Source: Lepisosteus oculatus
Lineage: Eukaryota; Chordata; Actinopteri; Semionotiformes; Lepisosteidae
Length of the DNA stretch: 64,000 nt
Direction of reading: 5' to 3'
NCBI RefSeq assembly: GCF_040954835.1
Contig: NC_090714.1
Location: 1,662,501-1,726,500, forward strand
This document shows positions 1 through 48,904 of this stretch, piece by piece; the stretch's first letter is position 1, and every line of letters starts with the position of its first letter. A model generated the notes under the pieces. The model was not told the origin of the DNA. It searched no databases and saw only the letters and a list, made by a program, of their open reading frames with translations. The translations under genes and the position numbers were made by a program.

Positions 1-1380
1 CTCTGACCTTCTGTCAGAACCTTGACCCAGATCTTGTAGCAACTGTATTGTCTGTGCAATAAAGTGAAGGTGTCACTGGAAGTCTGTTGTGTACAGCCAT
101 TAACTTCTATGAACTGTCCTCTGGTGTTGTGGTAGCACTGTATATTCTCCAGTGCTTTATTGATCTGAAGATCAGTGGAAGGATAGTAGATAATAGTACC
201 TTCAAGGGTAGCTTTTCTTAGGCAACAGCGTTACCTGGAGGAGAATGGCTATATCTTAATCTGTATATGGAGAAAGTTGGAGAGGTCTCCTGTTTGGTCT
301 TGGAGATAAATCTTGTACTAACACTTGAGCTTCAGTTATGCAGATATCACACCTGTAATGCACAAATTTAACTAGCCTGAGCCCTGCAACTGCAGACGTC
401 TACTAGTGTGGACAGGACATATTGAATAGCTTGAGAGGTGCAACTACAGAAGAACCCTGGTATGGACAGGACCAAGGGAGCACAGGCTTGTCAGTGCTGC
501 TACAGCACAGCAACCAAGGTGCCAAGCTGGGAGATGACGGGGTCTCCTGGCTGGAGTGGGCCTGTTCCACCTCAGGTGTGGCAGCTTCTGCAGGCTGGTT
601 TCCTTCTTCAAAGGTGCGGAGTAGCTTAACTGGCATGAATCCTGAAAATGCCCTGCAATCCTACCTGCCTGCCCAGGCACCTCCAACCCCTTGGAGATGC
701 CTTTTCTGTAACCGGCTGTACTAGAGCAGGGATCTCCAGTCCTCATCCTGAAAACTGCGAATGGAGCTCAGTTATACAAAGCAACCACTATCTAACTATG
801 AGCACTGGAGGAAGATCTTATGCTGCTTTGTAAGTGCATCACTCACTGATGGGAGATCCTTGTAGGGTCTTCTGGGTTTTGTTGCAACTCTTTCAAATTT
901 TTACACCACCTGGGTGGTTAGTCCAGGTCCTTAATGGTCATTTAATAAGTGTAGAACCTGCTGAGCTCGGACTCCCCAAAAGCAGGGGTGAGAGCGTTTC
1001 AGCTTCATCTAGAGCACATACAGTTTTGCTAAAGTGCAGGGATGGAGTACATTTATTTTAGTAATTTAGATTTAATTGGAAATACTTAGACTGTGAGACG
1101 AGAGCTATACCCTAACATTTCAGGATCTAACTTATCTTCATGCTCAGAAGGGTTTTGACATATTGACATTTATCCTACTGCAGTCATTTCGCTACTGCAC
1201 AAATCTGAAGTAGGCTGTGCTTTGCATATTCCAGCAGTATCTGGGGATATGAGAAATGAATTGAATGGGTTCCAGTTAGTCTAGACTGGAATTTAAAAGT
1301 AACAAGGTTAACATCCCTACACTTTAGGCTTCATGGACATCCCTTAAACATATCATCCAAATGACTGAACCTCTTACAGA
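1..1380 (+). repeat. Segmental duplication, copy 1 (partner at 17.8-19.1 kb)
   Basis: This segment aligns along its whole length, in the same order and orientation, with about 17,829-19,110. Shared blocks include the start (CTCTGACCT followed by GATCTTGTA), TATTGATCTGAAGATCAGTG, GGCCTGTTCCACCTCAG, GTGGCTTAACTGGCA-like and GGTTAGTCCAGGTCCTTAAT, and near the end CTACACTTT. The copies differ by many substitutions and small indels, so the duplication is old. The window edge cuts this copy, and it probably extends to the left. The open frames at 422-724 and 444-746 lie inside the duplicated block, but the corresponding frame in the other copy is not preserved, so they are not called as genes. Confidence 0.85.
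58..63 (+). terminator. Polyadenylation signal of a gene cut by the left window edge
   Basis: AATAAA lies shortly after the first bases of the window. It is the counterpart of AATAAA at 17,866-17,871 in the duplicated copy. The position implies that the last exon of a plus-strand gene ends here, with its body outside the window. The duplication supports the signal, but no transcript evidence is available. Confidence 0.45.
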
Positions 1381-1549
1381 GAGAGGTAAGATAGAAGAGC
1401 ACCTACAGCTCTCTCCCACCCCACTCACTACTTACCATAACAGTCTTGTTTTTCAGGATCTGTACCAGTCCTGAGTAGACTCAAATGTGCATAATATGAG
1501 ATCAAGCTACAAGGTTTTAATACTGTTGCTTGTTTTTTTCCCAGATATG

Positions 1550-1800
1550 ATTCCTGGCTGAAGAGGTGAGGAGGTTTTATTGGAGAAAGCTCCAGAGACA
1601 AGCTCTGTCAGCTGGGGAGGCTGGAGTATTCCTATTGGTCAGTTGCTCATATGCCGAGGAGCTGTTTGCATTGGTTAATAAGAGGCATATATTCAATTTC
1701 TATTGACCAGACGTAAAGATCTGAGCAGCCAATCAGATTGTTTTCTAGGTAGCCAGTGACTAGATGCTAGATGACAATCTTCATACACTCCAGGCAGGTG
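1550..1800 (+). promoter_or_regulatory. CCAAT-box cluster, possible promoter
   Basis: Three CCAAT motifs fall within 100 bases: ATTGG at 1634-1638, ATTGG at 1670-1674 and CCAAT at 1729-1733. A GGCCGCCAT element (YY1-like) follows near 1801. Spaced CCAAT boxes of this kind are typical of NF-Y promoters. No start site or exon could be tied to them, so this remains a suggestion. Confidence 0.25.
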
Positions 1801-2805
1801 TGGCCGCCATAGTGTGTTCGTATAGTAGAGAGTTTTAAAAGTGTGGGACTCACAAGTCAGTGTTCTTGTGGTCAGTGAAGCAGAAGATTTTAATGACTAA
1901 CTATAAATCAAGTAAATGCAGTAAAAACCAAGTTAAAAGTACATCATTGTCTAAAAGGAATTAAATTGCATGTTATCCTAGTGCCCTTACTAAATTACAA
2001 AAAATAGCTGTCAGCTGTTGCCTACACCTGAAGTGCTTTGACATTCATGCAGAATTGTTACAATTGGAACAGTCCAGTAGACGTCCTGTACAGATTATAC
2101 AGCCACCATTCAAACACAGGACACAAAATGAAGAAAACCCAGACTTCCCCATATCAGGAAGTCTGAGCATAGCTTGACCTGGACATGCATGCAGAATTCC
2201 ACGATTTGCACCAAGAGCGTGCATATGAGATGAGCTATCTCTGTGAGTGTGTTCGCTTTCTAATGAGAGAAACTAAAACTCATTAGTGTTCACTTGCTAA
2301 TGAGAGGACTCTCCCCAGTTATAATTGAGAGTGTGTGCTTTGTGGATTATTTCAGACCTGAAGGCTTCTTCTTCTGGAAAGGAGAGATCCTGCACACTGA
2401 GCTCATTGGAGGACACAGCTGCTACAATGCAGGTAGGAATATCTCTGCTCTGCCGGCACACAGCCTGTGTTTTACAGTCCAGGCTCTTTTGCATAAAGCA
2501 CCCTGTCAAATGTAAAGTGCTTTGTAAAATACCAGCTCTTCCCTTATGTTTTCTTGTGTCTGTCAGTATCATATGTGCCACTGTTCTTCTCCAGCAGTGT
2601 CTGGTATCACTCTGTCCACCTGCCTCTCTGTGTGAATGTTCCTGGAAAAAGGTTTATTCGTAGAAGGTATATTTGGTGTTGGATTTCACATCACTTTGTT
2701 CTGAACTATGACATTCTGTTTGTAGAACTTTTGTGATGCCACCACGGGCACTGCACTGAATGGGAGGTACTTTAAGAAGATTTCGCTCAGACTTTTGATC
2801 TCATT

Positions 2806-2971
2806 AAGATGGCGGAACTGAAGTATCGCAACATAAAACACCGCAATGATGATTGAAGTGGAACGAAACAGGGGAGAACTCGTACCTGCAGGCCACATAA
2901 AACAAACCCAGAGATGACAGAGAGTAGAAACTGAAGCCAAGCTGCACACAAACTACAGCTGACTGGATTTG
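2806..2971 (+). ncRNA. Candidate first exon with YY1-type start motif
   Basis: AAGATGGCGG at 2806-2815 matches the YY1 element found at vertebrate transcription starts. About 155 bases downstream, a good splice donor (TTTG then GTGAGTA) starts at 2972. From the ATG inside the motif, a frame of 15 codons runs before a stop, so the exon would be essentially non-coding. No matching acceptor or downstream exon could be assigned. The remaining sequence up to 3,940 is AT-rich with no recognisable gene. Confidence 0.3.
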
Positions 2972-3939
2972 GTGAGTACATGATTTCCCATTTGGAAAAG
3001 GACATAGGGAATGTGTTGGAAGACAACAGGAAAACAAAGAGTTTGTATTAAATAAACCATAGCAAAACAAAGAAAGGGCAAGGGAAGCAGAGTGAAGAAG
3101 AAAAAAGAAAAGGGTAAAGAAACAATCAAGAGCAGATAGTACAAGATAAAAGAAGTAAATAACAGACAGATCTACAATCCTTTAACTCACCAGATCGAGG
3201 ACTCCTGTCTGTTTCTTTATGACCTCGCTACCTGCCATGGGAGTTTGGGCAGGCGTTTGCAACTCTTCTGTATATTTCTGCTGATGCCGATTACAAAACT
3301 GCCTCAGAACTTAATTTAGGGAGATTTCAATGGCTGTTTGCTTAAGTCAGTTCTCCCTAATGATCATCAGTCTGTAAAAGGCTACACAAGAGGTTCTAGA
3401 ACGTTAGATCCCTGTTATGGTAACATTAAGAATGCCTGTAAAGTTCATATCAAACCACGACATGATGATTTGACTTAGTCCAAAAAGAAAGAGTAGGAAT
3501 TCAAAGCTGTGATAGTTTGAGGGAGAAAGCGATTCAGAGGAAGATATAGGAAGAATTGAAACAGGCTTAAAGAGATGATAAATCCAAGGTGGAGAAACGA
3601 ATGAATAGAAATAATGTACAGGAGGCGTGGCGTAGGATCTAAACCATGATTGGCCAGGTACCCCTTAGTAATGGGTGCTGGCTTGAGCACACACCCCACT
3701 ATGTAAATGAACTGAAATGTACAAAGTGGGGCATGTGGTTTTGCAAATAAATACTCTAAAATGTTTGGGCCTCAAAAATCAGGAAGGCAGAAATGTCATG
3801 AACAACTTAGTCCTGTTTTATGTAAACTTTTCCAAACATCAGTGGACATATTTAAAGTTCTGAGTTTGTAGAAGACATCTGCAATTATATCTAAACAATT
3901 ATAAAAGATTGTATCTACCAATTATATCTAAAAAAACCA

Positions 3940-4300
3940 AAAGCTGTTGAATTAAAAGATTTCCTTCCAGTAGCATTAGCTTCAGTCACAATTACATGTT
4001 TTGATCAAATAGGTTTGTTCCATCTTTATTCCGCAACCAGTGCACGCAGGGACCCCTGTCAGTTTGTGTTACAGAGCGAAACGAGGAGTGGAAGAAGAGT
4101 TTGTTGCTTTGTTAAATCAAGAGTACAAGCATTTACAGTAGATACTCTATCATCCTATGTGTTTGTACTTCTTGCTGACGTTTCATCTGCATTTAACAGT
4201 ATTCAGGCAAAAAAGTTGGTAGGGTAGATTTTGGATATAGGAGAACATCACACAATTACTCAGTGGATATACAATTTTCTTCCTGGTTTGTGACAGTATT
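3940..4300 (+). mobile_element. L2/Rex1-like LINE relic, reverse-transcriptase fragment
   Basis: Read in one plus frame with few breaks, this piece resembles the middle of a fish L2/Rex1-type reverse transcriptase. The motifs appear in family order. A LPVALAS-like start corresponds to RPVALTS, then come DPCQFVLQ and FVLLADVSSAFNSIQ (the block holding the first catalytic Asp, normally VDFSSAFNTI), and then a WIYNFL segment. A stop after KKLVG interrupts the frame. Both ends are missing, so it is a dead 5'- and 3'-truncated copy. It belongs to the same broad clade as the better preserved piece at 45.7 kb. Confidence 0.65.
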
Positions 4301-6420
4301 CCCGAGTGAGCTTGGGGAAGTCTCCCACCATCAGCTCCAGCACAGTGGTACCCTAAGAACCAGTTCATAAAATGGAAAGGTTTAGTTTTCAAACTTTGAG
4401 AAGACTTTTTTTATATGGATAAATTCTTTGTTTTCCTATGTTTGGGCCACAAGTCCTTTTTTTGTTTGTTTTTGTATTTTATTTTATCAGGGTACATTTT
4501 TTTTTACTGTAATTTGCCTTAGGTTTGTTCTGGTCTATCTAAAAATCAACACGACACATGACTGTAACCCCCATGGCATCACACTTTCATTTAGTTTACA
4601 TGGAATACTGATTACCTTAGAGCAACATGTTTCAAACTGAGATTTAGCTTTTCGATTTTGAATAGAAAGCCTGACATGACTTTCACTTTCTTATTTTCAC
4701 AGCAACAGTCTGGCCTCCCGGGGTCTCCTGTTGAATTCGCTCTCTGCCTGTTCTCACTCCTCCAGCTGGTCTGTGGAGAGCGAGCAGCTGCGACAGGTCA
4801 CCCCTGAGGCTGGAGGAAGGGCTCTCCTGTGGGTGAAGTGTCCTGTTCTCCTGTGGGGTGAGCAGTGCTTCATCAGCACAGCTGATCTTAAGGTCTTCTG
4901 TAACTGAAGGGATTGATTTGTGTTTATTTTACTTTAGCGACTTCCTAAGATTTCAGGAAAAGGTGTGTTTTGTTGTTCACATGTTTTTAAATAGTGTACG
5001 AGTAGGTGCCACTGTTCCCTGTTGCCCATAATTTCCATACCAAAGCCCCAGTACAGAGATTTTAAATATCCTGGGTCCTACAGGGCTCAGAGAGGTCATT
5101 TCATCTCAGACTGGGACTCAGTATTGCTAACAGTATTAGTAACATGCTCCTGGGCTTACTACTGTACTAAGCATGTCAAGTCCAGCCCTACCTGATGCAG
5201 CTATAGATGAGAAAAAAACTTATGACTATAAATGGTATGATTTTAGGGTCACTTTATCCTAGCAGAAACCCATCACTGATACTTATGCTATTTTAGACAG
5301 CTTTAATTGGGTTAGGCTTGTCTGGCAATTTTTTATCCCAGTTATTTGAGATAATTTACATACAACTACATACTTTATCATATATAATGATTAAACAATA
5401 GACTTTGTAGTGATTGTATTCTTCTCTGGTCTTGAGCAACTGTTCCTCCAATTCTACAGAAAACCTGTCATGAGTTGTTTTGAACTGTGGGGATTATATT
5501 TGTATCTGCAGTTAAATGTGGGTGTCTGTATATACAGTATATATTAGTGCCCTGCATTGATTGATTGATGGGATGATTGTATTTCTCAACTCTCAACAGT
5601 GCTGATGATCACAGGCCTTTCCCCTGAGTCCTTGAGCTGGGGGGGGGGATCATGAGGACCACCTGGACACTCAACACAGTCTACAGCCTCACCAGCATGA
5701 GAGGTCATTCTGAACAGCAGGTTCTTATGTCATTAAGAGGAAGTTATGATGCAGGGTTTCTTTCAGCGGAATAAATATTTATGTTCCTAATTTCTTAAAT
5801 GTTTATATAAAAAGATTTGTTAGAAAAACAATTTTGATGTTTAATTCTCAGTAACATAGCTCTGCACCTGGAGTAACTTTGTATCTGTCTCTTGCATGTC
5901 AAAGAATCAGTTTGTTTTATTTAATGAAAAAGGAAATGTAAACTAGTTTTGTAAGCAAACAAAGAATGGTTTTCCTTATGAAATTTGTTCCCTCCCGAGT
6001 AAACCTCCAGTTTCTTGTCCATGCTGTAGGTACTATCCAGATTTCTTGGAAAACTGGATAGACATGAAGGTTGATTTACAATTGATCTCTATTTGCCCCT
6101 GAAGTAGTGTTAAATGAATATTGTTGTGAAGACCTTTTGAGTTGGATTCTGCTGCTTAAATGGGAGATTTTACCAAAGGTAATAGTGGAAGTTCATTGTG
6201 TTATCAAGCAATTGCTTGTCCACAGGCTGCATAGCTTTGAGTATATTCAAGCAACAGGTGGAGTTTTACAGGCAAGGTGGAGGAAAAAACCTTGTGCAAC
6301 AACTACAGTGGACAAAGATGAAGCACCCTAAATTAATGACTGACAGGCACTCTGAGCAGCCTGGACTGGCAAAGGAAACGTTGACTCGTTCTTTCTACAT
6401 GAAGCGACACCACTAAAATA
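4300..6420. other. No gene seen; AT-rich intergenic sequence
   Basis: There are poly-T stretches, a G9 run near 5640 and TACTGTA/TATATACAGTATATA-type short palindromes around 5530. A moderately GC-rich patch at 4690-4870 (CCTCCAGCTGG, GGAGAGCGAGC) carries an AG-ended pyrimidine stretch before it and could be an exon, but no convincing frame was found. Confidence 0.4.
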
Positions 6421-6454
6421 CCCGAACCCAACACCGAAATTCACAAATTGATTT

Positions 6455-7060
6455 AAGAAAATCCAAGGACACCAATTTATTGCAAAATTGGAACAAAACA
6501 GTATAGTCGTAACGCTCCGGCGGCCCACAGTCTGGAGCCCCGGGAGAGGAAACGCTCCAGTCAGGACAGCCGGCCGGAGAGACGGTGGGCACCTGGGACG
6601 GCGAGGTGAGACCGGCTGCTCTCCGGGAACAACTGCTTCTTGAACAGGGGAGAAAAAGCGTTTCTAATACATATACTGTAGTTGCAAGTTCTGGCCTCTT
6701 ACCTTAGTCTATACAAAGGTAGCACCACTTTTGGAAAGCAAAAATAAGACGTTTACTCGCAGGGAGGTGTTGAGCGGTCAGCAGGAGGTAAAACACTGCT
6801 TCGCTCCATTTCCCCGTGGTAATTTTCCCCAAACTCGGATTAAGTGAACGCAGCTGTGGGCGCGTGCTCATTATAATACTGCTTTTCCATATTGAGAATA
6901 GTACAAACAAAGCTCTTTCTTTAAACCCGAAAGCAAGAGGCTCTGCAAGCAGAGTGCAGACCGGTTGGATTCTCACCTTCGAACTGACCGCTCATCTGTC
7001 CAGTTTCACGCCACACGGGAGCTCTGCGCTTCGGCGTCCAGGCTGTTGTAGAGGACAGGA
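6455..7060 (-). ncRNA. Short spliced transcription unit C (minus strand)
   Basis: A CpG-rich patch at about 6,980-7,100 would be its promoter and first exon. On the minus strand an ATG at 6995 starts Met-Ser-Gly-Gln-Phe-Glu and runs into a strong donor (GAAG then GTGAGA, GT at 6976-6975). A second good donor lies at 6702-6701 (CTAAG then GTAAGAG). An acceptor candidate at 6634-6633, after a pyrimidine-rich run, opens a GC-rich terminal exon. AATAAA follows in TTTTGCAATAAATTGG (plus 6476-6481). The exon joins cannot be settled by eye, and the 90-codon frame at 6704-6976 may be fortuitous. The style (CpG start, tiny exons, CAATAAA end) matches units A and B nearby. It could be a small protein gene or a lncRNA. 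Confidence 0.35.
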
Positions 7061-7149
7061 AGGCCGGGGAGCTGGAGAGGAGGAACTAGGGAATAAGACA
7101 CCTGCTGAAACACCACTAATAGAGCTGAGCAAGGATTAAAAATACAGGT

Positions 7150-8600
7150 AGCCGTTTATCGTTATAACAGCGTTCCGTTCCATTTAGCCCCTTTTAAAAG
7201 GGGGCGAAAGGGGTTGGTTTAGTTTTAATTCGACGTCTCTTTAAAAACTAAAAAAAGGCTTCTCTAAAAATCAAGTTACTGGCCGCGACAAAGTTGCTTC
7301 TCAAAGAAGCCTTCTCTAGATCCGTTTTGATCTGTTCCTATCCTACTATAAAGACATTTGTCCGTAATTCTGCTAAGACGCAACACAGCTGCCAGAGCAA
7401 TTTTTAAAGGAGACCAATTGATGGCTCATACAAGATTAATCACACCTGGCATCGGACTTTTAATTACTTAGAAATGTGTAATTGACACATTTAATTGGAG
7501 ACACAAGTAATATGAGTACAATCCCATTCCATACTTTTAACTGAGCCGGTGATTAAATAACCTTATGAAACTTCAGTTGAACATTTACGATTTGTTTTCA
7601 GTTCAACTCAAAATATGTTATTCATCCCTAGGGGTACAGATCATTAATTGTAAAAGGTTAGAAATTAGCGTCAATCTTGCGCCATAAACAGTGTTTCATA
7701 ATTCCTGTATTTTAGCTTTGGGTCAAGCGGTAAGAATTATACTGTTAGTGTTTGACAGTCAGTCTCACCTGTGATTACTGTACTGTGATTACTGTACTGT
7801 ACGTCACTCACTGACCGTGGTTCCCTTTTCACTGTAGAACCTGTGTATACAGTGTAGAACACGCTATAGACTTTTAATGCCTTTTTATATTAATCAAAAT
7901 GAATTTGCATCTCTTAGAGATGACAATTATGAGTTAATATAAAACGCCTAAATACCTGTCGGAAGCTGCTTCCACTGACTACATTTTGACTAGAATAACT
8001 TCCACATTATAGTATATTAAATAATAGCGTTGCTAATATTAATAATAAGCAGTGGTGTGATGCTCCATTGATTGCAAAACTAGTTATCATTCCTTGTCAC
8101 TGTTCTGTTTTCTACCCGTACACCAGTTAACGTTCTATTTACAGGCATTGCTTTTAATTTATAAATCCTTAATATGAAGGATTACTTTTATATATGGAAC
8201 CTTGTCAAACGCCCATGGTATATCATCATCATAAGTATATCATGTCGTGAAACCTACTAGTATAAAGGAGCTAAAGGTACAGTTCACTCTGCCCAGACAC
8301 CAGCTGGGGTACAAAAAATTTAGAGAAATTTAACCATTCATGTAGTTTGTAGAGGTGTCATTAGAATCATTTCAGACATTTTGTTTAAAAATATAAAAAA
8401 GCATCAACATTTTAACCTCTCAGACTGATACATGGCATACAGGCTCCCATAACTGTACTGCAAATTTTAATACTTTATTTTTCTCTGTCATGGGAAAAAA
8501 TAACAAGTCGTGCCCAGTTGCAAAGAGGCTAGAAAAGCGCATTACAAAGGCAGCTCCTTAGCCTTAACGTTTGAAAAGAGAGCAAAGAGGAGGAACCGCC
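7150..8600. other. No gene seen; AT-rich spacer between units
   Basis: There is a short tandem duplication TGTGATTACTGTACTG near 7770-7800 and several homeodomain-type TTAATTA/ATTA motifs. No exon, RNA gene or clear transposon was recognised. Confidence 0.4.
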
Positions 8601-8644
8601 TGGTCTCGGAACTATGACTTGATTTTAGGCTGAATAAGAGATGT

Positions 8645-8850
8645 AAATGGGCGGAGTTCTGCATGGCCGGCCTGGTGGCTCCGCGGGCTGAACCATCGGA
8701 CACTTCTAAAGTTCAGAGAGCAGATCGGCTCCCGGAGAGCCGTGTGAGTTGAAGTCGAGCCCCGAGCCTCCCCGTCAGTCTGAGACCTAATTCCCGGTCT
8801 GAGACCTAATCCCCGGGTGAAGCTCTCATGCTGTCGGGGTGAGTTTGTAG
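8645..8850 (+). promoter_or_regulatory. CpG-rich promoter with two donor-like sites
   Basis: A GC box (GGGCGG, 8649-8654) is followed by a CpG-rich stretch with GGCCGG and CCGCGG. There is a strong donor at 8744 (CCGT then GTGAGTT) and another at about 8838 (GTGAGTT). An acceptor-like site (TTTATCTTCAG) at about 9215 could receive it. It may be an upstream promoter of unit A or belong to a separate plus-strand transcript. No coding frame of note was found. Confidence 0.35.
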
Positions 8851-8929
8851 AAGGGGCTGTTCTCTACCACGCCGGCCGTTTTGGGGGGCTCCATTTTCGG
8901 GGCCTTCCAAAACAGGGCAAATGGGGGGT

Positions 8930-9010
8930 TTAAGTCCTTTATAAATGCGTAGTTCGGAATTCAATTCTAAAAAGCAGCCCCTTATACCACTGAGACACCT
9001 GCAGGATGGG
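8930..9010 (-). repeat. tRNA-like fragment, possible SINE head
   Basis: On the minus strand, GCAGGTGTCTCAGTGG followed by TATAAGGGGCTGC resembles the 5' half of a tRNA, with an A-box-like TGTCTCAGTGG. A B box is not clearly preserved and no acceptor-stem pairing was found, so it is not a functional tRNA gene. It is most likely a decayed tRNA-derived SINE head. Confidence 0.3.
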
Positions 9011-9299
9011 TGTGGCACTGGCAGTGAAAGAGAGGTGCAGTCCTAACTAGGAGCGACAGGGGTCTCTCTCCAGCACATTTCTCTTGATTCGATCAGCTGG
9101 CCGCAAGCTAAACGAGTCCAGCAAACAGACCCGTAGGGGAATTTTGTTCTATTAAGTTGTCGGAAAAAGCTTAGCCGTTAAATGCTTTGTTAAAATTGAC
9201 TTATTTATCTTCAGAACCGTCAGTGCTGAGCCCATGTAACCGAGCGCACAGCTGTCGTTCAGGAGCCGAGCCCGCCCCCAGAGTGTCCTTCCTCAGCGG

Positions 9300-10525
9300 A
9301 CACGCCCCGTCCACCTGTTCCACAGGTGCGCCCGGCAAGATGGCAGCGGGGAGAGTTTCTGCGGCGTGAGGTGCGTTTGCGTTTTATTTCTAATTTTCTT
9401 CTTTTAAATGTAAAAACTAAAATTTTACTTTGAGGAAAGTTAGACAAAAATGTATTGTTGTTGCAACTTTTGTTAATTGCATTTGTTTCTGTTGAATTTG
9501 TGTTTTAGGACGCCGAAATGAGTGTCCTGTCTGTTTGAGCGTGCTCTCGAAGTTTCAAAAGTCTGCCTTCAGCGTTCTTATACTACCTTTCATGTAAGTA
9601 TGTTTTATTTAAGATATGGCATCTCTAACTCTGTTTGCTCTAACGAAAAAAGCTGTAATTTATCTTAAATAATTTGCTGTATAAAATGAATAACTGTGTA
9701 TCTAATTGTTAGTATCTTCACCTTCCGGAATCGGGCTATAATATCGCTTTCTGTTCCCGAATGATACACTTTAGCAGAGATTAAATGTACTAATTCGTAT
9801 GTTTTCTTGTTTCTCCAGGTGACAAAGGGATTTCAAAAACGGGCCTCCAGTTATGAAAGTGTTTTTTTCCGCGGTAAGTTTTATTCCTGTATTAAAGACA
9901 ACTCGTATTTCACAGCATTTGAACACCAGAACGGTTTTCTACAAACGTTATCGCTTCTTTTCGTTTAGTTGTGCTTTTGCTGAATACAAATAGGAAACAC
10001 AAAAGCGGTGGTTGTTTTTTTATGGATTCTTTTATTCATAATAGGCTGAACCTATTTTCTAAATATTGGAGTACTGGGACCGGGGTGTATCTGGGATTTC
10101 TCATGATGTTACCTATTGTTTGCTTTTTGAATTTGAGTGTGTTTGTATGTTTCTTTATTTTTTAGTAAAGGTTTTTTTTTAAAAAAAGTTAATGTACAAT
10201 CGATTCACTTGAAGTTCTGAAGTCTAAGTCCGGTATCCCGTTAACTTGCTTCTTTTCCTTTTGCCTTCAGTTCTGCGGCTCCTGGTTCTCTGCGCTCCGA
10301 CGATCTGCTTTCCAGCTCCACTCCAGCAACTCGACGAGCGTTGGCCAAGTTCTTCTCGACAATGTGTGCTTTTTGTTACATTTGATTTTTTTTACCAGTG
10401 GCTTGATCTGCAATGTCCCGATTCAGTGCTGTATTTTATTCTTGACCTGCATGTTTTCTGTTGATTGCTGCTATTGTATTTGCTGTGAATTCTGCAATAA
10501 AAACTCGTTTCATTGTCTGCATTGT
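9300..10525 (+). ncRNA. Short spliced transcription unit A
   Basis: A full set of gene signals lies within 1.2 kb. The promoter has CACGCCCCG, the palindrome CACCTGTTCCACAGGTG and a YY1-type AAGATGGCAGC (9337-9347). Exon 1 ends at a donor GT at 9371. Exon 2 is 9509-9593 (acceptor TGTTTTAG, donor GTAAGTA). Exon 3 is 9819-9873 (TTGTTTCTCCAG, GTAAGTT). Exon 4 starts at 10271 (TTGCCTTCAG), with AATAAA at 10496-10501. ATGs in exons 1 and 2 give only 9- and 6-codon frames. From ATG 9853 in exon 3 a frame continues in phase into exon 4, rich in Cys, Phe and Leu, but it reaches a stop only at 10544-10546, past the expected cleavage site. A lncRNA is the simplest reading, with a microprotein as the alternative. 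It is paired with unit B. Confidence 0.6.
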
Positions 10526-10539
10526 CCTGTATTTTCGAA

Positions 10540-11031
10540 GGTGTGAAGTGTTGTCTTGCGCGTGCGCCACGCACCGCAAGGCGACAACCCATCGCACTGA
10601 CCTGGAAAAGTGCGAGGACGCCCGCCTTTTTAGATAGTCTGGGGGGGAATAGGGTCCCTAGGAGGGAGCGTGGGTCTAGCCCTGGGGGGAGGAGAAGGGA
10701 GGCTAGCTCTAGCCAAGCCCCCTCACTCCCAGCAGGAGGGGAAGGCAGGCTGGAGATGGCCTCGGCCCGAGAGAGAGGAGGCACCCAGGGCGGACTCAGC
10801 CCATCAGTCACAGTTGCAACTGACAGATTTCTAAGTCCACACCCCAGGAGACCTGCCTCTCTGCAGGGACCAAAGCCACCACCAACCTGCCATCCTCTCC
10901 TGCCGGGAGCGAGTGGGCCTGGCTAGAGCTGCGGTCAATCAGCCAGCCCCCGCCTACCCCTCTCCAATGAGGGGGGGTGGGCGAGGCTCGGCTTGATTGC
11001 TACCAGACCCCGAGAGAAACCCCAGATACTA
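10540..11031. other. GC-rich spacer between convergent units A and B
   Basis: This is one of the most GC-rich stretches of the window, with G7-G8 runs and an imperfect hairpin at 10,551-10,585 whose arms contain TGTC, TTGCG and GTGCG. The 137-codon plus frame (10,513-10,926) and 139-codon minus frame (10,392-10,811) overlap each other and reflect high GC rather than protein. No gene is called. Confidence 0.45.
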
Positions 11032-11158
11032 AGTTTTTTGGCGGGAAAATCTGGACACGCTTGAAAAGGGGGTAGCCTTTGACCTTTTTAAGTCAAAAAG
11101 CGATAGGGGGTCCCCTTGCGGCCACAAACTGTAAGCAAAATCTCTCCGCCAAAAAACT
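11032..11158. repeat. Inverted repeat, possible foldback element
   Basis: Perfect 13-base arms, AGTTTTTTGGCGG at 11032-11044 and its complement at 11146-11158, enclose about 100 bases. The pairing extends loosely inward (GAAAATCT against AAAATCTCT). Inside is a smaller inverted pair, TTTGAC...GTCAAA. It could be a MITE-like foldback or a structure past the 3' end of unit B. No target-site duplication is evident. Confidence 0.5.
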
Positions 11159-11224
11159 CACCAACACCGGGGGTTTTCAGGGCCAAGGGGTACAGAACTC
11201 TGCACAAGAAATCAAAGAACAAAA

Positions 11225-12625
11225 TCAAGGTCCAATCAACAATTTATTGAGCGAAAATGGCATACAAAACAAAGCATTACAATACGTCGGATGCACAGGC
11301 TTCAAAGTGGAAATAAACATGCATTTCAATTACAAAGTGTCAAAGCACGGCAACATTAACGCTAAATAGTGTTACAAGTCAACAGAGTAAGAAAACATTT
11401 GCAAGCAACTACATGTCAAAACAGAAACACACAGCACGTTACTGTTTCTCCGAGGCAGCGACCGGAATGAAGACTGGAACTTTGTTGCAATTCCTGTAAA
11501 ACAACAGAAATCAGTATTAACTTTCGGTTACAAACAGGATCTCGAAATGATCCCAGTTAGATCGAGCTTCTGTATCGACTGATACAGTTGAAAAAGATTT
11601 CCAGTTGGAACAAAGCGCTCAGCCTGGTGTAACGGAAAACGTTCCTGCTTAACAGGGTATTGAAGCGGTTACAAGTGTGAATACCGAAGACACAATACAT
11701 CTAGTGTATCGATTAGAGACCAGCACAAACTTATTTAACACACAAATAATCAATCCATAGTTTTATAGGTTCCGTTGTCTTAATTGTTGTGATGCAATTT
11801 GGAAGCTAAAACGGCTTCTAATGAATCCGTATTATGCGCATTAAAAAAGCGACATTGGATCGCAGTTTTAGTAGAAAATGATTGCTATACATAACAGCGT
11901 TGTCGGGTCAAAACCATTTGTGCCCTGGAGAAATCTAGTATCGCCTAGTTTGAGTCTTCTTCCAAAAACTGTAGTGTACTTCAATACGATACGTGTCAAC
12001 GAACAAAAAGGTTTATACTTACATAGATAATTTCAGCAGCTGTGCCAAGCCCGTCCTGCCCGAAGACACCAAACTGGAAACACAAGAACACAAGTTTTTA
12101 GACGAGTATTTAAAGATAATTGAAACCAAGGTTTCTTAGTAGCAAACGGCGTTTTCACCAGGGCAGGTGGCGCAAAATATCTCTTAATGAGATACTTGCA
12201 AAGACATGAATAAAATGTTTGTACTTACGTTTAAACTCCCATTATTTAGTGCGAATCTTGTCCTTTGAAAGCCCATTAAAATGTATTAGTGGCAAGCGAA
12301 TAGAAGAGCATTATCACACAACAAACTCTGGAAAATAACGAAAAACTTGACAAAGTACTTTCCAAACGTAGGTTTGGATGAATGCACACGCTTAGTTTTG
12401 TGAACAAAGACGCATTAAAAGTGCTACTTAGCTCCCAACAAAATTACGTGTTTAACCCTTTTGTCATATAAAGTTCAGACTACATAATTACTTGAGTTAA
12501 ATTTTATCTATATTCAAATAAAGGAAAAATAGAAAAGAATCGGAAAAGACGCGGAACAAACGCACTCAGCTCCGCTCTCTCCAGCAGAACCTGGCGCACA
12601 GGTGCGCGGGGCGTGGCCTGCGAGA
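11225..12625 (-). ncRNA. Short spliced transcription unit B, inverted paralogue of A
   Basis: On the minus strand, exon 1 ends at donor GTGCGTTTG (GT at 12565-12564). Exon 2 is 12327-12229 (acceptor TTATTTTCCAG, donor GTAAGTA). Exon 3 is 12073-12023 (TTGTGTTTCCAG, GTAAGTA). Exon 4 runs from 11493 (TGTTTTACAG) to about 11,225, with AATAAA at 11248-11243. Exon sizes (99, 51, about 270) parallel unit A (85, 55, about 250), and the promoter and first donor share ordered blocks with A. Joining exons 2-4 from ATG 12276 leaves an uninterrupted frame of 58 codons ending at 11416. It starts Met-Gly-Phe-Gln-Arg and ends in a Cys-Cys-Val-Phe-Leu-Phe tail. A second phase through exons 3 and 4 is also open, so coding status is undecided. 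Confidence 0.6.
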
Positions 12626-12700
12626 GATGTCATTCGAGTGGGCGTGGCCACAGACTGACGGTGCAGGCAGCTTTTTTTCTTGGCTCCACGTGAAAACGTG
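12585..12700 (-). promoter_or_regulatory. GC-box/E-box promoter of unit B
   Basis: Two GC/KLF boxes, GGGGCGTGGC at 12608-12617 and GGGCGTGGC at 12640-12648, lie upstream of exon 1 of unit B, and an E-box CACGTG sits at 12687-12692. On the minus strand, CACGCCCCG, CACCTGT, GCGCC and GAGAG come in the same order as at 9300-9360 in unit A. Confidence 0.55.
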
Positions 12701-13400
12701 TTAAAGATATCGAGCATGTTTACAGAAGCCCCCATGAGTTACAAGTTTCAAAATCCCCTTTCCCATGGCCATCTGAGTAATCTCAGTTAGTGCATTTAAT
12801 CCTTATGAGTGTTTGAGAGCCACAGGAATGTGAATGAAAGGATTTAGAAACATGCAGGCGAGCTGTGGGCACTAAAGTTCTCTGCAGGACACTTACTGTT
12901 CTATAACCTGATCCATCTTAACTCTGCACCAAGAAGTCAGATTTTTCATGTGTGAACGTTTATCATGCACTCAATTTACCACCTTTCTACTTCTAATTAG
13001 TCATGCAGCTGATGTGTTCATGTAATAAGTTACAAGAACATGAGAAAGGTCAAAAGAGAGGACAGTATTTGATCCATGTAGCCCTTTCAGTTACTGATAT
13101 CAGTTTGATTGGATAGTCTCATGGAGCCGTTGCTCGAAAGAAAACAGGCTGTTGATTTAGAAAAATGGTTGGATCGCCTGTGCCATTCTCCCACAACTCT
13201 TTGTGTAAAGTTCTTTCACATTTCCCTTGGGTCATGTCAAAGTTATAAATACTGCTTTACTTGCACTTTTTTTAACTGGTTAACTGCAGCAACTATTTAA
13301 CTCATTAGCATATCACTAGTACACTGTACCAAGGTACATGTTATATTCCAATAAACTCAAAATTCTCAGCCTCAGAGTAACCCCACCAGTGCTTTTGAAG
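12700..13400. other. No gene seen
   Basis: This is ordinary AT-rich sequence with ATTA motifs around 12,990-13,000. The frame at 13,109-13,300 (+) has no splice or promoter context and is not called. Confidence 0.35.
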
Positions 13401-13413
13401 AGTCAGAACCTAC

Positions 13414-13530
13414 CTGGCGGGAGATGAACCATTTCTTAAGGAGGTCTAGAGCAGGATCAGCACCAGAGCCAAATGGTGTCCAGTAGAAGACTCCCAAGTA
13501 CTGGGAGAGCTCAGGTGCAGACTCTGGGAG
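13414..13530 (-). CDS. Internal coding exon, 39 codons, unknown gene
   Basis: On the minus strand, a strong pyrimidine-rich acceptor (CTGCTGCTTTCACCAG) precedes 117 open bases, followed by a good donor (CGCCAG then GTAGGT, GT at 13413-13412). The exon is phase 0 at both ends. Its translation reads like real protein: a Leu-Pro-Glu-Ser start, then YLGVFYWTPFGSG, then DPALDLLKKW and a SRQ end. I do not recognise the family. No partner exon was found with confidence on either side, although the sequence to the right (13,540-14,350) is unusually GC-rich. It cannot belong downstream of the 31.3 kb exon in the same transcript, because that exon ends in a stop. It could be a surviving piece of a broken gene. 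Confidence 0.5.
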
Positions 13531-13539
13531 CTGGTGAAA

Positions 13540-14350
13540 GCAGCAGGGAGGAAGAACTCAGTCAAGGAAAGCTGGCTGATTGCAAAAAGGTGTATGAGGC
13601 CATGGGGGTAGTGGCTGCCACTATGGACACCAACAGGCAGAACTGACTCTCCAGACACCCCTCACAGCCTGCTGGGGAACTTTTCTTCCTCTTTTTCATT
13701 CTTTCCACGCACTCTCCTCTGATCCCCCGATCACCAGGACACGGGGAGCACACATGGCTGTGCCAGGCTGTCTGGACCCCCAGCTCCTGGGCTCTCTGAT
13801 CTCCTCTGAGATCATGCCTTCAGTTCCTCGTGTCGCCAAGCCCTTCACTTGTGGTTTTACTCTCACTCTTACTCACCATGGACTTACTGCACAGCCCTGT
13901 TCTCACACTCAACAGGCTGCTCTGTCTTTAAATAATCTCATCTTTCACACCAGACAATTCCCTCCAGGATAGCTGCTCTCACTCCATCCCTTCGATGTTC
14001 TTCTCCACAGTCTCCTCTGACACTCTCCCCTGATCAGGGTTTCTTCAACTGCAGCCACTACTCTGTTCTCACATCCGGCAGACCTGTTCTTTCCAGCTCT
14101 TATTATTAGACACAGCTCCGACCTGGTGACTCTCACTGCTGTGCCTCAGCCTGCATGTTAACAGGAGACCTGTTCTCCTCTGGACTGCCACTAACTCAGG
14201 ACTGACATCCTGCTTCAACTCTCCCAGGGACGTTTTCAGCCTGATCTTATAATCACGCCTCCAGCTGAATCTCCTGAGCTTCCAAATGCTCTTCAGCTGT
14301 GGTCAGCTCTGCAGTTCTCTGTTGAGAGCTCCGCCTCCCTGGCAAACACA
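13540..14350. other. GC-rich block of unknown origin
   Basis: On the minus strand, GGAGAGTG and AGAGGAGA motifs recur (for example near 13,715, 13,795, 14,010 and 14,165). Several overlapping short frames are open on both strands. It resembles decayed repeat or decayed tandem coding sequence. Nothing specific could be recognised. Confidence 0.3.
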
Positions 14351-14679
14351 CCCCATATGACAACACATGTGCTTCATACCAAAAGAGCAGAACTCAACAA
14401 ACCACAAGCACTTCAAAAACATTTCACCTCTTCATACAGAAGGTAAAATTTGATTCACTAGGTTAGTTGAACAACAATTCTATTGATAGATCTGTTCAAA
14501 TGGGTGACGTTTCAGGAGTGTCTGACAGCCTGGAACATGCTAGCATCGTTTATAAAAGCAAGGAAGTGCAAAGCCAAGTCATGGAGACCTTGCATTCCTA
14601 TGGTTAGATCTGGTCAGTAGTAGAAGAGTTCAAACTATCAACTAGTGATCAGAACTGGTTTCAAGAGTACAGCCAGTGT

Positions 14680-15860
14680 GTTACTGAAGGAGTTGGAGTA
14701 TAGGCTGCACCACAGTGATATAGTGGGGTCAGTGGGCCAGGGTAGGCTGGGCCAGCGTGTATAACCCCTGACCCAAAAAATGACAGGTCAGTTAGAGCAG
14801 TGAAAATGAAGAAGCAGGGCAACTGGATATGCAGGTAAGATATAAGGAAGCTATCACTGACCAGGCTCGACATCGGGAACATGGAAAAACAATGTTTTTT
14901 CTTCAAAGAAGAAATTTGATCAATTAATGAAGTTCTGCCCACAGTAACCAGCCTCCATACATAGGGGCTGGTAGAAAGCCCTAATTTCACACAGTGTGTA
15001 GGGCCAGCAAGTCTAGAGAATGAGCTCTCCTTCTGTCAAGCAGGTCTGTCAGATGGGAGATTTAGGTGGCAACATGAACAGATACTGACACAGCCGGGAG
15101 CCGAACTAGAGATGGCAAAGAGGAGATCAGATCAGCTTACCCAGGACCCTTATTGTACCCACTGTCAGGTCAGGAGAGGGTGTGGTAAAGGCGGCAAAAG
15201 ACAAAGGGATTCTCGCAACAACAAGCGACTGGGAAAAGCAAGCAGATCTAAAGAGGCAGCTCAAGTTTCCAGAAGAAATAATCAGCATGCGTCTTAGGCC
15301 AGACAACATTTTTTGGGAGCTCTCATTGAATAGACAGTGCCCTGGGGAAGAGGACAGTGGCACATGAGCGAAAGGAAATAACAGTCCCTCATCCTAGAGT
15401 GTCATCAAAATGGATGGAGAATAGGGAGCCTCCCAGTTGAAGCTGGCTGTAGGGGTTTTGTGAGACAGTCACTTTGGAAAGGCCTGGGGCTGCGTGGTGT
15501 CAAACGAACAGTAAAGAGAAAGTTAGTGGGCAAGGAAAGGCAGTATCTAGATGGACCTGGATCACAAGGAATGAGCTTTGGCAAACTAAAGCAAGCTGTA
15601 GGGACATGGAACTGAGCTGATGTGAGCAGATCTGAGTAACAACATGTGTGCCAGAAACAATGAGTCTCAGAGAAAAATAGGGCTATACAGTATGTTTTCA
15701 CACCCCTGTGCTGTTTAGTGTAAATGCTCCTCTGGCAGGGATTGCAGTAAGATCACGTCTCCTTTTGAAAGGGGATACGCAAACATGGGTTCATTTCCCA
15801 TCCCTGGATTTTTCAAAGTGGTAGAAGCAGCAAGAGCAGTTCATGCTCTAAGGCTCCAAG
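14680..15860 (+). mobile_element. R2-like non-LTR retroelement, decayed 3' part
   Basis: In shifting plus frames this follows the C-terminal part of the fish proteins usually labelled type-1 retrotransposable element R2. Near the start is an SDIVGSVGQGRLG-like stretch. Then come a HTWGLVESP-like stretch at about 14,950, a CRAS...GRFRW-like region, a KGILATTSDWE motif, LKRQLKFPEEI and LRPDN. The last corresponds to the LRPDIVL part of the C-terminal endonuclease-like domain. VPWEE- and GCRGF-like remnants follow near 15,350-15,450, and a short end is seen near 15,860. Many frameshifts and stops make it inactive. The reverse transcriptase core is absent. The minus frame at 15,127-15,363 is a shadow of this element. 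Confidence 0.6.
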
Positions 15861-15869
15861 GCTGGTTAA

Positions 15870-16550
15870 ACACATGACTTGTGTTTAAGAAGAGAGGGCC
15901 AGGAGGAAACAGTGATGACACCGCATTTTAGGAGAAATGATTTACAGAAATCAAGGGATGAAAATGAAAACTCATAGCTGAAGTGTTTGGTTAAGTATTT
16001 GAAAAAAACCAAAACCATAAGCAAAAACAAATAAAATGTTATTTTGGACTGTAATGATGATAAACTGTCACCCTGCTAGTTTATTTACATGTCAGTTTAC
16101 TAAACCACCAGACCAATTATTGGTGAAAACAGTTCAACAGGAAAAATCATCAGCCAATACAGGGCATCAAAATGTTGGAAAGCAAATTCTGTGTCTCAAT
16201 CTCCTTAGTTAACTAAAATGACAACACTTTTAATCACTATTATTTTTTAAATACAGAGGACTCTATTAGCAAAAAAAAAAAAATTTAATTGGTCTGCAGC
16301 ACTGACTTTCTCCTTTGAAAAAGTCAACATCATTCCAATCATAGCAGGCATTGACAAATGTACTGGAAGAGAAATAATATCAGGTGCTGAAGCGATTTAT
16401 GAGTCACAATTACAAATCTGTATTTGTATGATGGAGTATATACTGTATAAAACATAATCAAATCATTATCTTTCTCTCTTAATCTATTTCTGGAATAGAT
16501 CGCAGTATGCTGAAAAGTTTAGAAAGAACACATGGTAAAAAAACCTCACA
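15870..16550. other. No gene seen
   Basis: AT-rich sequence with an A13 run near 16,270. No features were recognised. Confidence 0.35.
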
Positions 16551-16732
16551 TTTTGGCTCAAGCCCAGGCTGTGGTGTTTCTCTGAGCCAAGATGGCTTCT
16601 GAGCAGGCAGGGATCTGGAAGCAGGTGTGTGTTATTGAGCTGGACACACCTGGGCATTCCACATGAGGATTTTAGAGCTTTGGGATAGGTTCCCATGGAA
16701 TTAGCCCAGCCCCTGTAATTAATGAAGAGGCT

Positions 16733-17875
16733 TATAAAAACTTGGGAGGAGAGCAGTTCCATTTCGCTTTGAGTTGGAGAAGAACATGGAACTTTTTCCA
16801 TTGTGAGCTGTATTTTTTTTTGATGTTCCTGCAGTTCTAGAATAGTGGGATCTGTTTGGAGAGAAGAGCACAATGTTAATGGGTTGTAAAATTCTACTGG
16901 AACACTGTTCCTGAAGCCAGTTGATCCTCTGTGGGATTTGACTAGCTGTTCTGTGGCCTGAAAATGCAGTAGGTGATCCTGTCCATGTGCTGAGATGTGT
17001 ACACCAGCTCATGGGTAAGCCATGATGGTGAGGTGAGTAAATTGCCATTCCAAAGTTCCCAGTCAGTGATGCTGAATGTAGATGTTCAGGGAGCTGCATG
17101 CACATTACTAAGTGTCAGTATTTCAAAGAGCCCCTTTAGATGAGGGCTAGTTCTTCTGTATGGCCTCTGGAGGCAGTATGTCCTTAAGCACAGGTCTATG
17201 GAACCGTCTGCTAAATAGAGGCTTCATGTGGCTCCACAATACTTTGCATTAAGCCCTCCAGTATGTCTTGGCAGCAATCCATTCAAAGGAACTAGGTTTG
17301 TAGGTGTGTGAGGAAAGCCGTTTACTATGAAAAGCCTAGTTTGTCCATGGGATACAGAAACCCAGCTTGACCCTGCTGCACAGCCAGTGAGGAGACATCC
17401 CTACACCAAGATCCCAGGTGGGGCACTGCTGTGCTTAGCTGTTGAAATGGGTGGGAATTGAAGATACTATGGATAAAAACATTGGTGTAATACCCCAGTT
17501 TTTAAGTGTGCTTCCTTACAGCGGTACTTCCACTGGATAAGTCGGTGGCAAGGTGTGGAAGTCTTTCCAATACGGCTCATGATCTGGGTAAGGTTGAGCA
17601 GGTTGTGGTCTCCAAGCTTGGTGAATGTGTGACTGGTCTGGGTAGAGATGTTGAGACATGCTACAATGCTCAGTGTCAAGACTTGTAACCTCTTCTTCCC
17701 CTCCTTCGCAGGAAAAAATCCCTATTGATTATTGGGGATGGATGGAGATGGGCAGAAAGCTCTCCAACAGGAATGGGACATCCTCAACATCTGTAATAAG
17801 GAACCAAGATGGGGCTTGCATGGTGATCCTCTGACCTGCCATGATCTTGTAACTGTTGTCAATGCAATAAAATGA
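16733..17875 (+). pseudogene. Broken gene body at the edge of duplicated copy 2
   Basis: A TATA box (CTTATAAAAAC, about 16,731-16,741) precedes an ATG about 55 bases downstream, and AATAAA at 17,866-17,871 would end the unit. Between them are several good splice-like sites: acceptor GCTTCCTTACAG at about 17,521, donor TGG then GTAAGG at about 17,586 and acceptor CCCCTCCTTCGCAG at about 17,711. The stretch 17,157-17,455 is nearly open in one frame (two stops). The ATG frame stops after six codons and no single frame spans the unit, so it is read as a decayed gene. A TATA start, compact size, very short 3' UTR and tandem copies would fit a multigene family such as egg-coat (ZP) genes. No diagnostic ZP motif was seen, so the family is left open. 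Confidence 0.3.
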
Positions 17876-19110
17876 AAGTGGTGTTGGATGTTTCTGTACA
17901 GCCAGTGACTTCTATGAACTTGCTCCAGATGCTGTGGTACCCCTAGATAATCCCTGATGCTGTATTGATCTGAAGATCAGTGGGAGGACGGTAATGATTA
18001 CATTAGTCCCATCAGGGGTAGGTTTTCTTAAGCAACTTATCTGGAGGAAGAGCACTGTATTATAACATGGATTATGAGCCAAAGGTAGGAATGTGTACTA
18101 GTTCAGTCTTTAATGAGACTGAATTAAGAAGTACCTAAGTATTGAGAGGACCAAGGCTTGTTAGAGCTGCACAGCAACCAAGCTGGAAATTAACTGGGTT
18201 TCCTGGGTAGAACTGGCCTGTTCCACCTCAGCTGGGGCAGTTTGCTGCAGCTGCTGCAAGCCAGTTTTCTTCAGAGGTGCAGCGTGGCTTAACTGGCACT
18301 CTAAACTGGCCCCTTCAATCCTTAGAAGGTGCCCTTTCTCCAAAAGGTCCCACTTGAGTGGGGAATTTCTTCCTCTCATTCTGGAAACTGCCAGTTGAGT
18401 TCAGTTATCAGTTTTAAGGGAACTGGTGAATGGTTTTCTGTTACCTAATTTGGTCACTCACTGGTAGGAGCTCCTTACGTTAAGTATCTTCTGAGTTCTG
18501 TTACAAATCCTTAGAATTATACATCACCTGGATGGTTAGTCCAGGTCCTTAATGATCATTCGATAGTTTAGTATAGAACCTGCTGCGCTCAGGCTCCACA
18601 AAGGCAGGGGGTGAGAGTCTTGGCTTAATCTAGAGTATGCACCTTTTACTACTAAGGTGCAGTAGTAGAGTGCATTTATTTGAGCTATTTAGATTTTTTT
18701 AATTGCTGTCTGGGACATGGCAGTTACCATTCTTGTAAATGGTAGGGGCAGGCATGTTACCATATACAGAGTTCTCCAGGAAATGGGCTGTGCGATCCAA
18801 GCTGTACCTTAACATTTCAGGACCGAATGGTTTCATCTTCATGGTTGGAGTGGTTTAATGTCCCCTATAATCATCTTCCTACTGCACAAAACTGAGGAAC
18901 AAGGCTAAGTCCTATTTCTATAGCTGGTGCTCGACATTAGCAGGGTTACACTTTTGAATGGAAATGCACAGGGAAATGGTAAGGATCCCAGGTGTTAGTC
19001 TAGATGGAAATTTAGTAAGGACTGTATGGTCAACACTCCTACACTTTTAATCGGTATGGACCATCCATACACTAAATGCAGTCAATCATATGAATGATTG
19101 AACACCTTAC
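17829..19110 (+). repeat. Segmental duplication, copy 2 (partner at 1-1380)
   Basis: This is collinear with 1-1380 in the same orientation and begins with the polyadenylation region of the broken gene at 16.7-17.9 kb. The alignment can be followed through GGACCAAGG/GGCTTGT, GGCCTGTTCCACCTCAGC, GGTTAGTCCAGGTCCTTAAT, GCATTTATTT, CTAACATTTCAGGA-like and CTCCTACACTTTTAA. It fades after about 19,110. A small expansion near 18,700-18,800 is not matched in copy 1. Confidence 0.85.
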
Positions 19111-36872: not shown

Positions 36873-37142
36873 CTTGTATCACGCACACTTCACAAGGCAC
36901 TTGTGTCACGCACACTTCACCCTGGACTTGTGTCACACACACTTCACAAGACACTTGTGTCACGCACACTTCACAAGACACTTGTGTCACGCAGACCTCA
37001 CAATGGACTTGTTTCACGCAGACCTCACAATGGACTTGTGTCACGCACACCTCACAATGGACTTGTGTCACGCACACATCACAAGACACTTGTGTCACGC
37101 ACACATCACAAGGCACTTGTGTCACGCACACCTCACAGTGCA
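36873..37142 (+). repeat. 27-bp minisatellite, ten units
   Basis: Ten head-to-tail units of exactly 27 bases begin CTTGTGTCACGCACAC and end in variants of TTCACAAGACA. Units 5-7 share CCTCACAATGGA, and units 1, 3, 4, 8 and 9 carry the CACAAGRCA type, showing local spread of variants. Since 27 is a multiple of three and the unit lacks stops in most frames, long repeated open frames appear on both strands (236 codons plus-strand at 36,712-37,422, 92 codons minus-strand). These are best read as by-products of the repeat. Confidence 0.9.
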
Positions 37143-37149
37143 CTTCCCT

Positions 37150-45730: not shown

Positions 45731-45739
45731 TCCAGCCCT

Positions 45740-48770: not shown

Positions 48771-48904
48771 GGTGTTCAATTATTATTTCACATACACTGA
48801 TTCTTATTCATTCTTTTTCTAATTCATACCCTACTGCATTTCAGGAGCACTGAATTGATGCATATAAACCCTTTTGGTATTAGAGAAAACAGTACAGTAT
48901 ATTG

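Follow-up and report, generated by a model that had tools for sequence, protein, structure and literature searches.

What are the two short convergent units that lie in mirror image within the 64,000-nucleotide stretch of Lepisosteus oculatus DNA analysed here (the window)? Unit A is on the plus strand and unit B on the minus strand, both with the splice signals of short spliced genes present in the sequence. Our best reading, to which we give a probability of about one half, is a multicopy noncoding RNA locus with a hairpin core, probably active in the germline or early embryo. Transcription and RNA function of the pair are deduced from sequence throughout, and all transcripts named below are predicted transcripts.

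Exon models and the family of copies

The initial annotation had placed splice junctions at 9593/9819 and 9873/10271 in A and at 12229/12073 and 12023/11493 in B. All of them are present in the sequence, and 9370/9509 (A) and 12566/12327 (B) complete the set (Table 1). The hexamer GTAAGT occurs 23 times on the two strands of the window, four of these occurrences being donors of A and B (9594, 9874, 12228 and 12022), and GTGCGTTTG is found once per strand, at 9371 (+) and 12565 (-). The promoter A core contains AAGATGGC, which we take to be a YY1-like motif.

Table 1. Predicted features of the pair and of its repeat unit in window positions; fractions are copies that keep the signal, identities are to the window
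Feature	Position	Strand	Observations
One repeat unit of ~17.7 kb holding the pair	448..18126	.	internal recurrences in the window and colinear C19 stretches
Block D, conserved, CpG-rich, upstream of A	8640..9110	.	identity 96-98% for 8700-9099
Promoter A core and start of exon 1	9286..9345	+	holds the 34-bp piece and AAGATGGC
Exon A1 (start approximate)	9326..9370	+	donor GT 27/27; median identity 96%
Exon A2, 85 b	9509..9593	+	acceptor 26/27, donor 26/27; identity 94%; also in the C2 copy
Exon A3, 55 b	9819..9873	+	acceptor 27/27, donor 27/27; identity 86%
Exon A4 (end approximate)	10271..10515	+	AATAAA at 10496-10501; acceptor 27/27, AATAAA 27/27; identity 94-96%, intron before A4 79%
Central block, imperfect palindrome between the poly(A) signals, most conserved part	10541..11220	.	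566/680 columns invariant in 27 copies
Hairpin H1, ~100-bp stem	10704..10930	-	more stable as minus-strand RNA
Hairpin region H3, weaker than H1	11008..11185	-	window z: minus -4.6, plus -1.5
Exon B4 (end approximate)	11228..11493	-	AATAAA at 11248-11243; acceptor 27/27, AATAAA 27/27; identity 94-96%
Exon B3, 51 b	12023..12073	-	acceptor 26/26, donor 26/26; identity 87%
Exon B2, 99 b, least conserved exon	12229..12327	-	donor 21/25, acceptor 19/21; identity 73%
Exon B1 (start approximate)	12566..12607	-	donor GT 26/26; median identity 100%
Promoter B, homologous to promoter A	12590..12660	-	identity 95% for 12601-12680; left-arm profile match E 7.6e-9

The annotation had known of no matching family. 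This holds for Rfam, which has no match at the gathering score in the window or in 18 loci (a loose threshold yields only matches far below the gathering scores), but it was incomplete, as the same genome holds a large family of the A/B pair. We searched 1.2 Gb in 813 contigs for copies. The pair region has 240 matches, and the contigs among the matches listed are C19, C26 and C27. Allowing up to three mismatches, and hence blind to copies decayed further, a search with 34 bp of promoter A (the 34-bp piece) gives 67 places, 62 without a mismatch, five with one and none with two or three; a reversed control pattern of the piece has no match in the genome. The 67 places lie on six contigs (C19 36, C26 18, C27 8, C20 3, C2 1 and C21 1), 36 in forward and 31 in reverse orientation, and we read 33 of them, the window included. 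The hairpin-arm pattern at C19:11187153 and C27:8804370 has no promoter match nearby. All 40 scored genome places of the central block (of 69 candidates) adjoin a promoter-A match, and the same is true of all 40 scored places of block D (of 92 candidates).

Window positions 448-1073 recur at 18127-18696 and positions 30-242 at 17843-18048, and the DNA between adjacent C19 copies is colinear with the window in two stretches. These recurrences and colinear stretches indicate a repeat unit of about 17.7 kb. It would have multiplied, together with the pair and its palindromic centre, via tandem and dispersed duplication. By eye alone, transposon fragments can be made out in the larger unit. The same kind of inspection, applied to open reading frames of at least 70 amino acids, revealed no host protein gene in the surrounding DNA, though it may miss small exons.

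Conservation between copies and coding potential

The main alignment comprises 27 copies, the window and 26 fetched loci (L003, L008, L009-L032), and its identities are medians to the window. Promoters A and B are 97% and 95% identical, and the introns, in transcription order, stand at 91, 80 and 79% in A and 77, 84 and 82% in B, differing by about 16-23% on average per copy. Identity steps coincide with the predicted exon borders. Compared with the retention of splice dinucleotides and of both AATAAA signals in Table 1, control GT and AG within the same introns are kept in 54-66% of copies on average, a retention of 0.963 being reached by four of the 164 controls. Conservation between copies thus extends to the splice and poly(A) signals, the promoter and the centre.

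Four distant copies (C20, the second C27 copy and two on C26) were compared in a fixed-column alignment, which is possibly misaligned in places. Here, A keeps the GT of donor 1 in 4/4, the AG of acceptor 1 in 3/4, and acceptor 2, donor 3, acceptor 3 and AATAAA in 4/4 each; its donor 2 has GT at the aligned place in 2/4 and the GTAAGT form in 0/4. In B, all three acceptors and AATAAA are kept in 4/4, donor 2 in 2/4 and donor 3 in 3/4, and donor 1 has GT in 2/3, with GC in C20 and one C26 stretch ending before the donor. The 34-bp piece is unchanged in the C20 copy and the two C26 copies. The lone C2 copy keeps, by eye, all six A splice sites and AATAAA. The C21 copy is a natural example of decay: window positions 10146-10979, which hold A4 and some two thirds of the centre with H1, are missing from it, as are 12491-12637 (promoter B), and its second donor of A is lost.

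We count the retention of splice and poly(A) signals above the intronic controls and the identity steps at the exon borders in favour of a pair of noncoding genes, and likewise the 62 of 67 identical promoter pieces, despite introns about 16-23% apart. The changed splice signals in distant copies count against it, as does the near-identity of the centre within C19, which is perhaps in part gene conversion. Instead, the unit might be a macro-repeat, selfish or amplified passively, that has promoters and no host function, with promoter and splice identity due to recent spread and concerted evolution. Its many copies, surroundings with transposon remnants and no host protein gene noticed by eye, and a centre that is 97-99% identical in many C19 copies and about 80% in the C20 and second C27 copies would all suit this explanation. 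We nevertheless regard it as improbable. Had the copies spread or been converted recently, their introns would not be about 20% apart with GT/AG, AATAAA and 34 promoter bases preserved, and the C21 copy, in losing A4, much of the centre with H1, promoter B and the second donor of A, shows what decay looks like. It is difficult to account for a promoter piece at 67 places, identical in 62, beside introns about one fifth apart unless noncoding copies that look redundant are under selection or concerted evolution takes an unusual form.

The absence of a conventional protein, claimed by the initial annotation, is supported by the copies. No frame is open in all 27 copies in A2, A3, A4, B2, B3, B4 or the centre, and length changes relative to the window that are not multiples of three occur in 10 copies of A2, 18 of A3, 19 of A4, 12 of B2, 19 of B4 and 20 of the centre; stops also break frames in exons across copies. 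No copy has a frameshift relative to the window in A1, B1 or B3, and the length of B3 is kept in 25/26 copies, which we count against the noncoding reading, though the exons around them do shift. The longest ATG frame varies across copies from 10 to 86 amino acids in spliced A and from 20 to 89 in spliced B. A protein-coding gene was rejected after the spliced frames of A and B had been examined with alternative exon-1 ends and then across the 27 copies, where no frame is kept.

A host gene for intronic small RNAs (snoRNA or microRNA) was another candidate, which short noncoding exons and a hairpin in intron 1 (9378-9460, z -4.1 in the window) would suit. This hairpin is weaker than -14 kcal/mol in 18 of the 27 copies and displays no consistent covariation by eye in an 18-sequence alignment. 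By eye, the second intron of A might also be read as H/ACA-like. The window and the 18 loci have no Rfam match at the gathering score, and the introns, with 77-91% identity compared to 94-100% in first and last exons and 73-94% in middle exons, are mostly the least conserved parts, unlike those of a host gene. We rejected this candidate as very improbable.

CpG content bears on the likely site of activity. Introns included, the median observed/expected CpG ratio is 0.99 in A (27 copies) and 1.01 in B (26 copies), compared to 0.48 in the centre and, in the flanks of the window, 0.34 on the left (1-8600, including a CpG-richer stretch from 6250) and 0.29 on the right (12700-64000). Germline hypomethylation is the usual cause of retained CpG. 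The ratios near 1.0 over both units suggest such hypomethylation here, and from CpG retention over the whole units we infer that both are probably transcribed in the germline or early embryo. Likely germline activity and the transposon fragments seen by eye in the larger unit would also be expected of a piRNA precursor cluster, an explanation that the copy-by-copy conservation of exons and splice signals renders highly unlikely.

The two arms and the central block

Aligned in the same sense, A and B reach a local score of 47 (dinucleotide shuffles 26.8 ± 3.0, with 0/200 as high) over 133 columns that run from the promoter into intron 1 (blastn E about 5e-4). A against the reverse complement of B gives no alignment above chance (144/200 shuffles as high). 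For exons 2, 3 and 4, A and B are no more alike than chance would give (96, 60 and 157 of 200 shuffles as high). The paralogy suggested by the annotation therefore rests on the promoter, on exon 1 and the beginning of intron 1, and on the palindromic centre, with no part played by exons 2-4.

Profiles of the arms extend this picture. The left-arm profile (9250-10817) matches the promoter and exon 1 of the right arm in the window (E 7.6e-9), the second C27 copy (1.1e-10) and C20 (2.6e-9), and it matches the centre with E 5.4e-12 (window), 1.7e-22 (C20) and 1.8e-22 (second C27 copy). With the right-arm profile the E values are 1.4e-13 and 2.6e-11 in the window, 1.9e-37 in the centre of C20 and 3.8e-9 in the centre of the second C27 copy. 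The two C26 copies and the C2 copy agree with arm homology at promoter and centre; the stretches between promoter/exon 1 and centre have no arm-to-arm match by profiles. As the matches at promoter/exon 1 and centre come in the right order for an inverted duplication, they bear out the earlier suggestion that a short gene was duplicated in this way. A and B are best explained as arms that arose when a short, presumably noncoding gene underwent an old inverted duplication.

The central block has 566 invariant of 680 columns in the 27 copies, and the introns have 420 of 1523. Its mean distance stays at 0.018-0.024 while intron distance runs from 0.10 to 0.22, and reaches 0.045-0.067 beyond that. 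These flat distances, with the roughly 80% identity in the C20 and second C27 copies, indicate that concerted evolution probably adds to constraint on the centre within C19, where its near-identity may partly be gene conversion. Substitutions from the majority number 312, twelve of which are CpG to TpG/CpA.

In RNA folding models the centre can form a long hairpin, its middle part best as minus-strand RNA. Positions 10700-10935 fold with -186.1 kcal/mol on the minus strand (z -14.2) and -140.2 kcal/mol on the plus strand (z -8.1), and the minus fold of H1 is the more stable in 26/26 copies (26 of 31 sequences had both anchors). The whole centre follows this order (z -11.8 minus, -7.2 plus), H2 is about equal (-4.9 plus, -4.1 minus), and the left part of the centre (-3.1 plus, -0.7 minus) and the small hairpin H0 (-3.5 plus, -1.2 minus) fold better on the plus strand, as does H3, slightly, in the C2 copy (-49.4 versus -47.7).

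With the H1 arms of the window aligned by sequence alone, 12 differences are G.U on the minus strand and one on the plus strand. The excess toward minus is found in 32/32 copies (one-sided p 5e-4 to 0.17 per copy, values that are non-independent because the copies share ancestry) and is weaker in C20 (7:3), C26 (8:3, 7:3) and C2 (8:2), with p 0.055-0.17. Arm transversions amount to 2-10 per copy. We used this sequence-only count instead of counts on pairs derived from the minus fold, which favour minus by construction; pairs derived from the plus fold display no minus bias, and the outer arms of seven copies no consistent one. A 14-copy minus alignment of H1 has 96 predicted pairs, with 40 cells changed on one side and still paired, 18 broken without a gap, and no pair with a kept double change; this structure was itself derived from those minus sequences. 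Among 206 pairs in the plus fold of 11 whole centres, seven show a kept double change. We interpret the H1 pattern as fitting selection for a minus-strand hairpin RNA, but also as fitting strand-biased mutation, itself perhaps a reflection of transcription.

The main rival to our reading takes the centre as a pause or termination element between convergent lncRNA genes, in which G runs stall the polymerase behind the poly(A) sites; the hairpin would then be a by-product or work at the DNA level. Precedents are the MAZ-type pause sites that lie between closely spaced genes. The centre sits between two conserved AATAAA signals, carries several runs of at least five G on its plus strand and has hairpins on both strands, all of which would suit a pause element; a stem of about 100 bp with arm differences mostly wobble on one strand is left unexplained. 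We consider this rival unlikely, if possible. Arm homology at promoter and centre, frameshifts and stops, the CpG ratios, the H1 z of -14 and the wobble bias are in turn counted for the noncoding gene pair.

Predicted RNA products and comparable loci

If the locus is a noncoding pair with a hairpin core, convergent spliced noncoding RNAs would start from promoters A and B. A minus-strand transcript crossing the centre, whether by read-through from B or from a start of its own, would form a hairpin RNA, and dsRNA would arise where both strands overlap. That there are so many near-identical promoters suggests that dosage is needed, and copy number may set the dose of an RNA that acts in structured or double-stranded form and is perhaps diced; this is the least certain step. 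Dozens of recurrences with a near-constant promoter and a long hairpin between the genes point to a maintained, so far undescribed RNA function. A literature search, in the portions of the publications available to us, brought up nothing that we recognised as this pair family.

Drosophila hpRNA (hairpin RNA, endo-siRNA) loci, in the part of the source accessible to us, are inverted repeats in tandem multicopy arrangement with mRNA-like, often spliced primary transcripts (PMC10317233). So far as those parts of the source go, the pair family resembles loci such as hp-CG4068 and the hp-tHMG cluster in its inverted repeats, its many copies and its predicted spliced, mRNA-like transcripts, and differs in that its hairpin is placed past a poly(A) signal that is conserved and that its host is a vertebrate. 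A locus of this class would be expected to carry the hairpin within its primary transcript, to release Dicer-dependent siRNAs of ~21 nt from the stem and to have arms with homology to a target gene. The centre is a long inverted repeat predicted to form a long RNA duplex (stem of about 100 bp; z -14 minus, -8 plus). For the centre, the 40 scored places of 69 candidates include no target outside the family; all of them are family loci, which may crowd out weaker matches.

It is conceivable, and to us rather doubtful, that the pair is a vertebrate counterpart of the hpRNA loci: a multicopy, germline-active noncoding pair whose mirror structure would give a long hairpin RNA for RNA interference or another dsRNA function, and whose promoter, splicing and hairpin would be under selection across dozens of copies. 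Several results count against a hairpin RNA. The AATAAA of B is intact in 27/27 copies, which places H1 past the normal end of B, to be reached by read-through or from its own start. H1 also folds on the plus strand (z -8), the left centre and H0 fold better there, kept double changes number zero in the 14-copy alignment, and the wobble bias could come from strand-biased mutation. The family still lends itself to testing, on a concrete example, whether noncoding RNA is selected for dosage and whether long hairpin RNA operates in a vertebrate-type germline.

Macrosatellites such as D4Z4 and DXZ4 share with the pair unit, in the parts of the literature available to us, a large repeated unit with internal transcription, which is predicted in our case. 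The pair unit is likewise large (~17.7 kb) and multicopy (promoter piece at 67 places). It differs from these macrosatellites, to the extent that the same sources cover them, in having no coding gene noticed, in holding two mirror-image spliced genes and a hairpin core, and in being dispersed over six contigs in both orientations rather than mainly in one head-to-tail array. The miR-430/427 clusters are multicopy embryonic noncoding loci. Many copies are common to them and the pair family, for which early activity is possible; unlike these clusters, the pair family has no Rfam microRNA match at the gathering score in the window and 18 loci, and it is the spliced exons that are conserved instead.

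Doubled and facing units

Two units of equal score face each other at G000:C19:12825940-12837476, on contig C19 of the same genome, and this region is an apparent large palindrome. In three fetched copies of the A/B locus (L008, L016 and L032) the A unit is doubled in tandem. The inner unit of these pairs begins at window position 9318/9319, close to the presumed start of exon 1, and is preceded by what looks like the AATAA(G) end of the previous unit. In copies L022, L015 and L018, exon A4, in which unit A ends, itself contains tandem copies of a piece resembling window 10346-10485, with a spacing of 156 bp (see table).

Elements upstream of A and in the centre

Block D, upstream of A, carries a donor-like GTGAGTTTG near 8839 and is perhaps another promoter and first exon. 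In the palindromic centre between A and B, the E2F-like TTTTGGCGGGAAAA and its inverted partner lie at window positions 11036-11049 and 11146-11158; both are retained in two distant copies, the C20 copy and the second C27 copy.

Further candidate unit and repeats

A further likely spliced unit, C, is predicted from sequence signals (GAAG/GTGAGA near 6977, AATAAA near 6480), with conserved islands at 6900-7099 (97-99%) and 6500-6699 (91-96%), which only few copies cover. Pieces related to it are found again on contig C26. Open frames run across the 27-bp repeat in all three plus-strand frames.

Coordinates of the additional features (window positions unless a copy is named)
Feature	Position	Strand	Remark
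A4 tandem copies	L022:3557-4044; L015:4554-4902; L018:3636-3970		
Block D	8640-9110		CpG-rich; 8700-9099 conserved at 96-98%
Candidate unit C	7060-6476	-	
27-bp tandem repeat	36873-37145		about 10 copies
LINE-type reverse transcriptase fragment	45693-46199	+	ORFs judged by eye
Tc1-like transposase remnants	48195-49453	-	ORFs judged by eye
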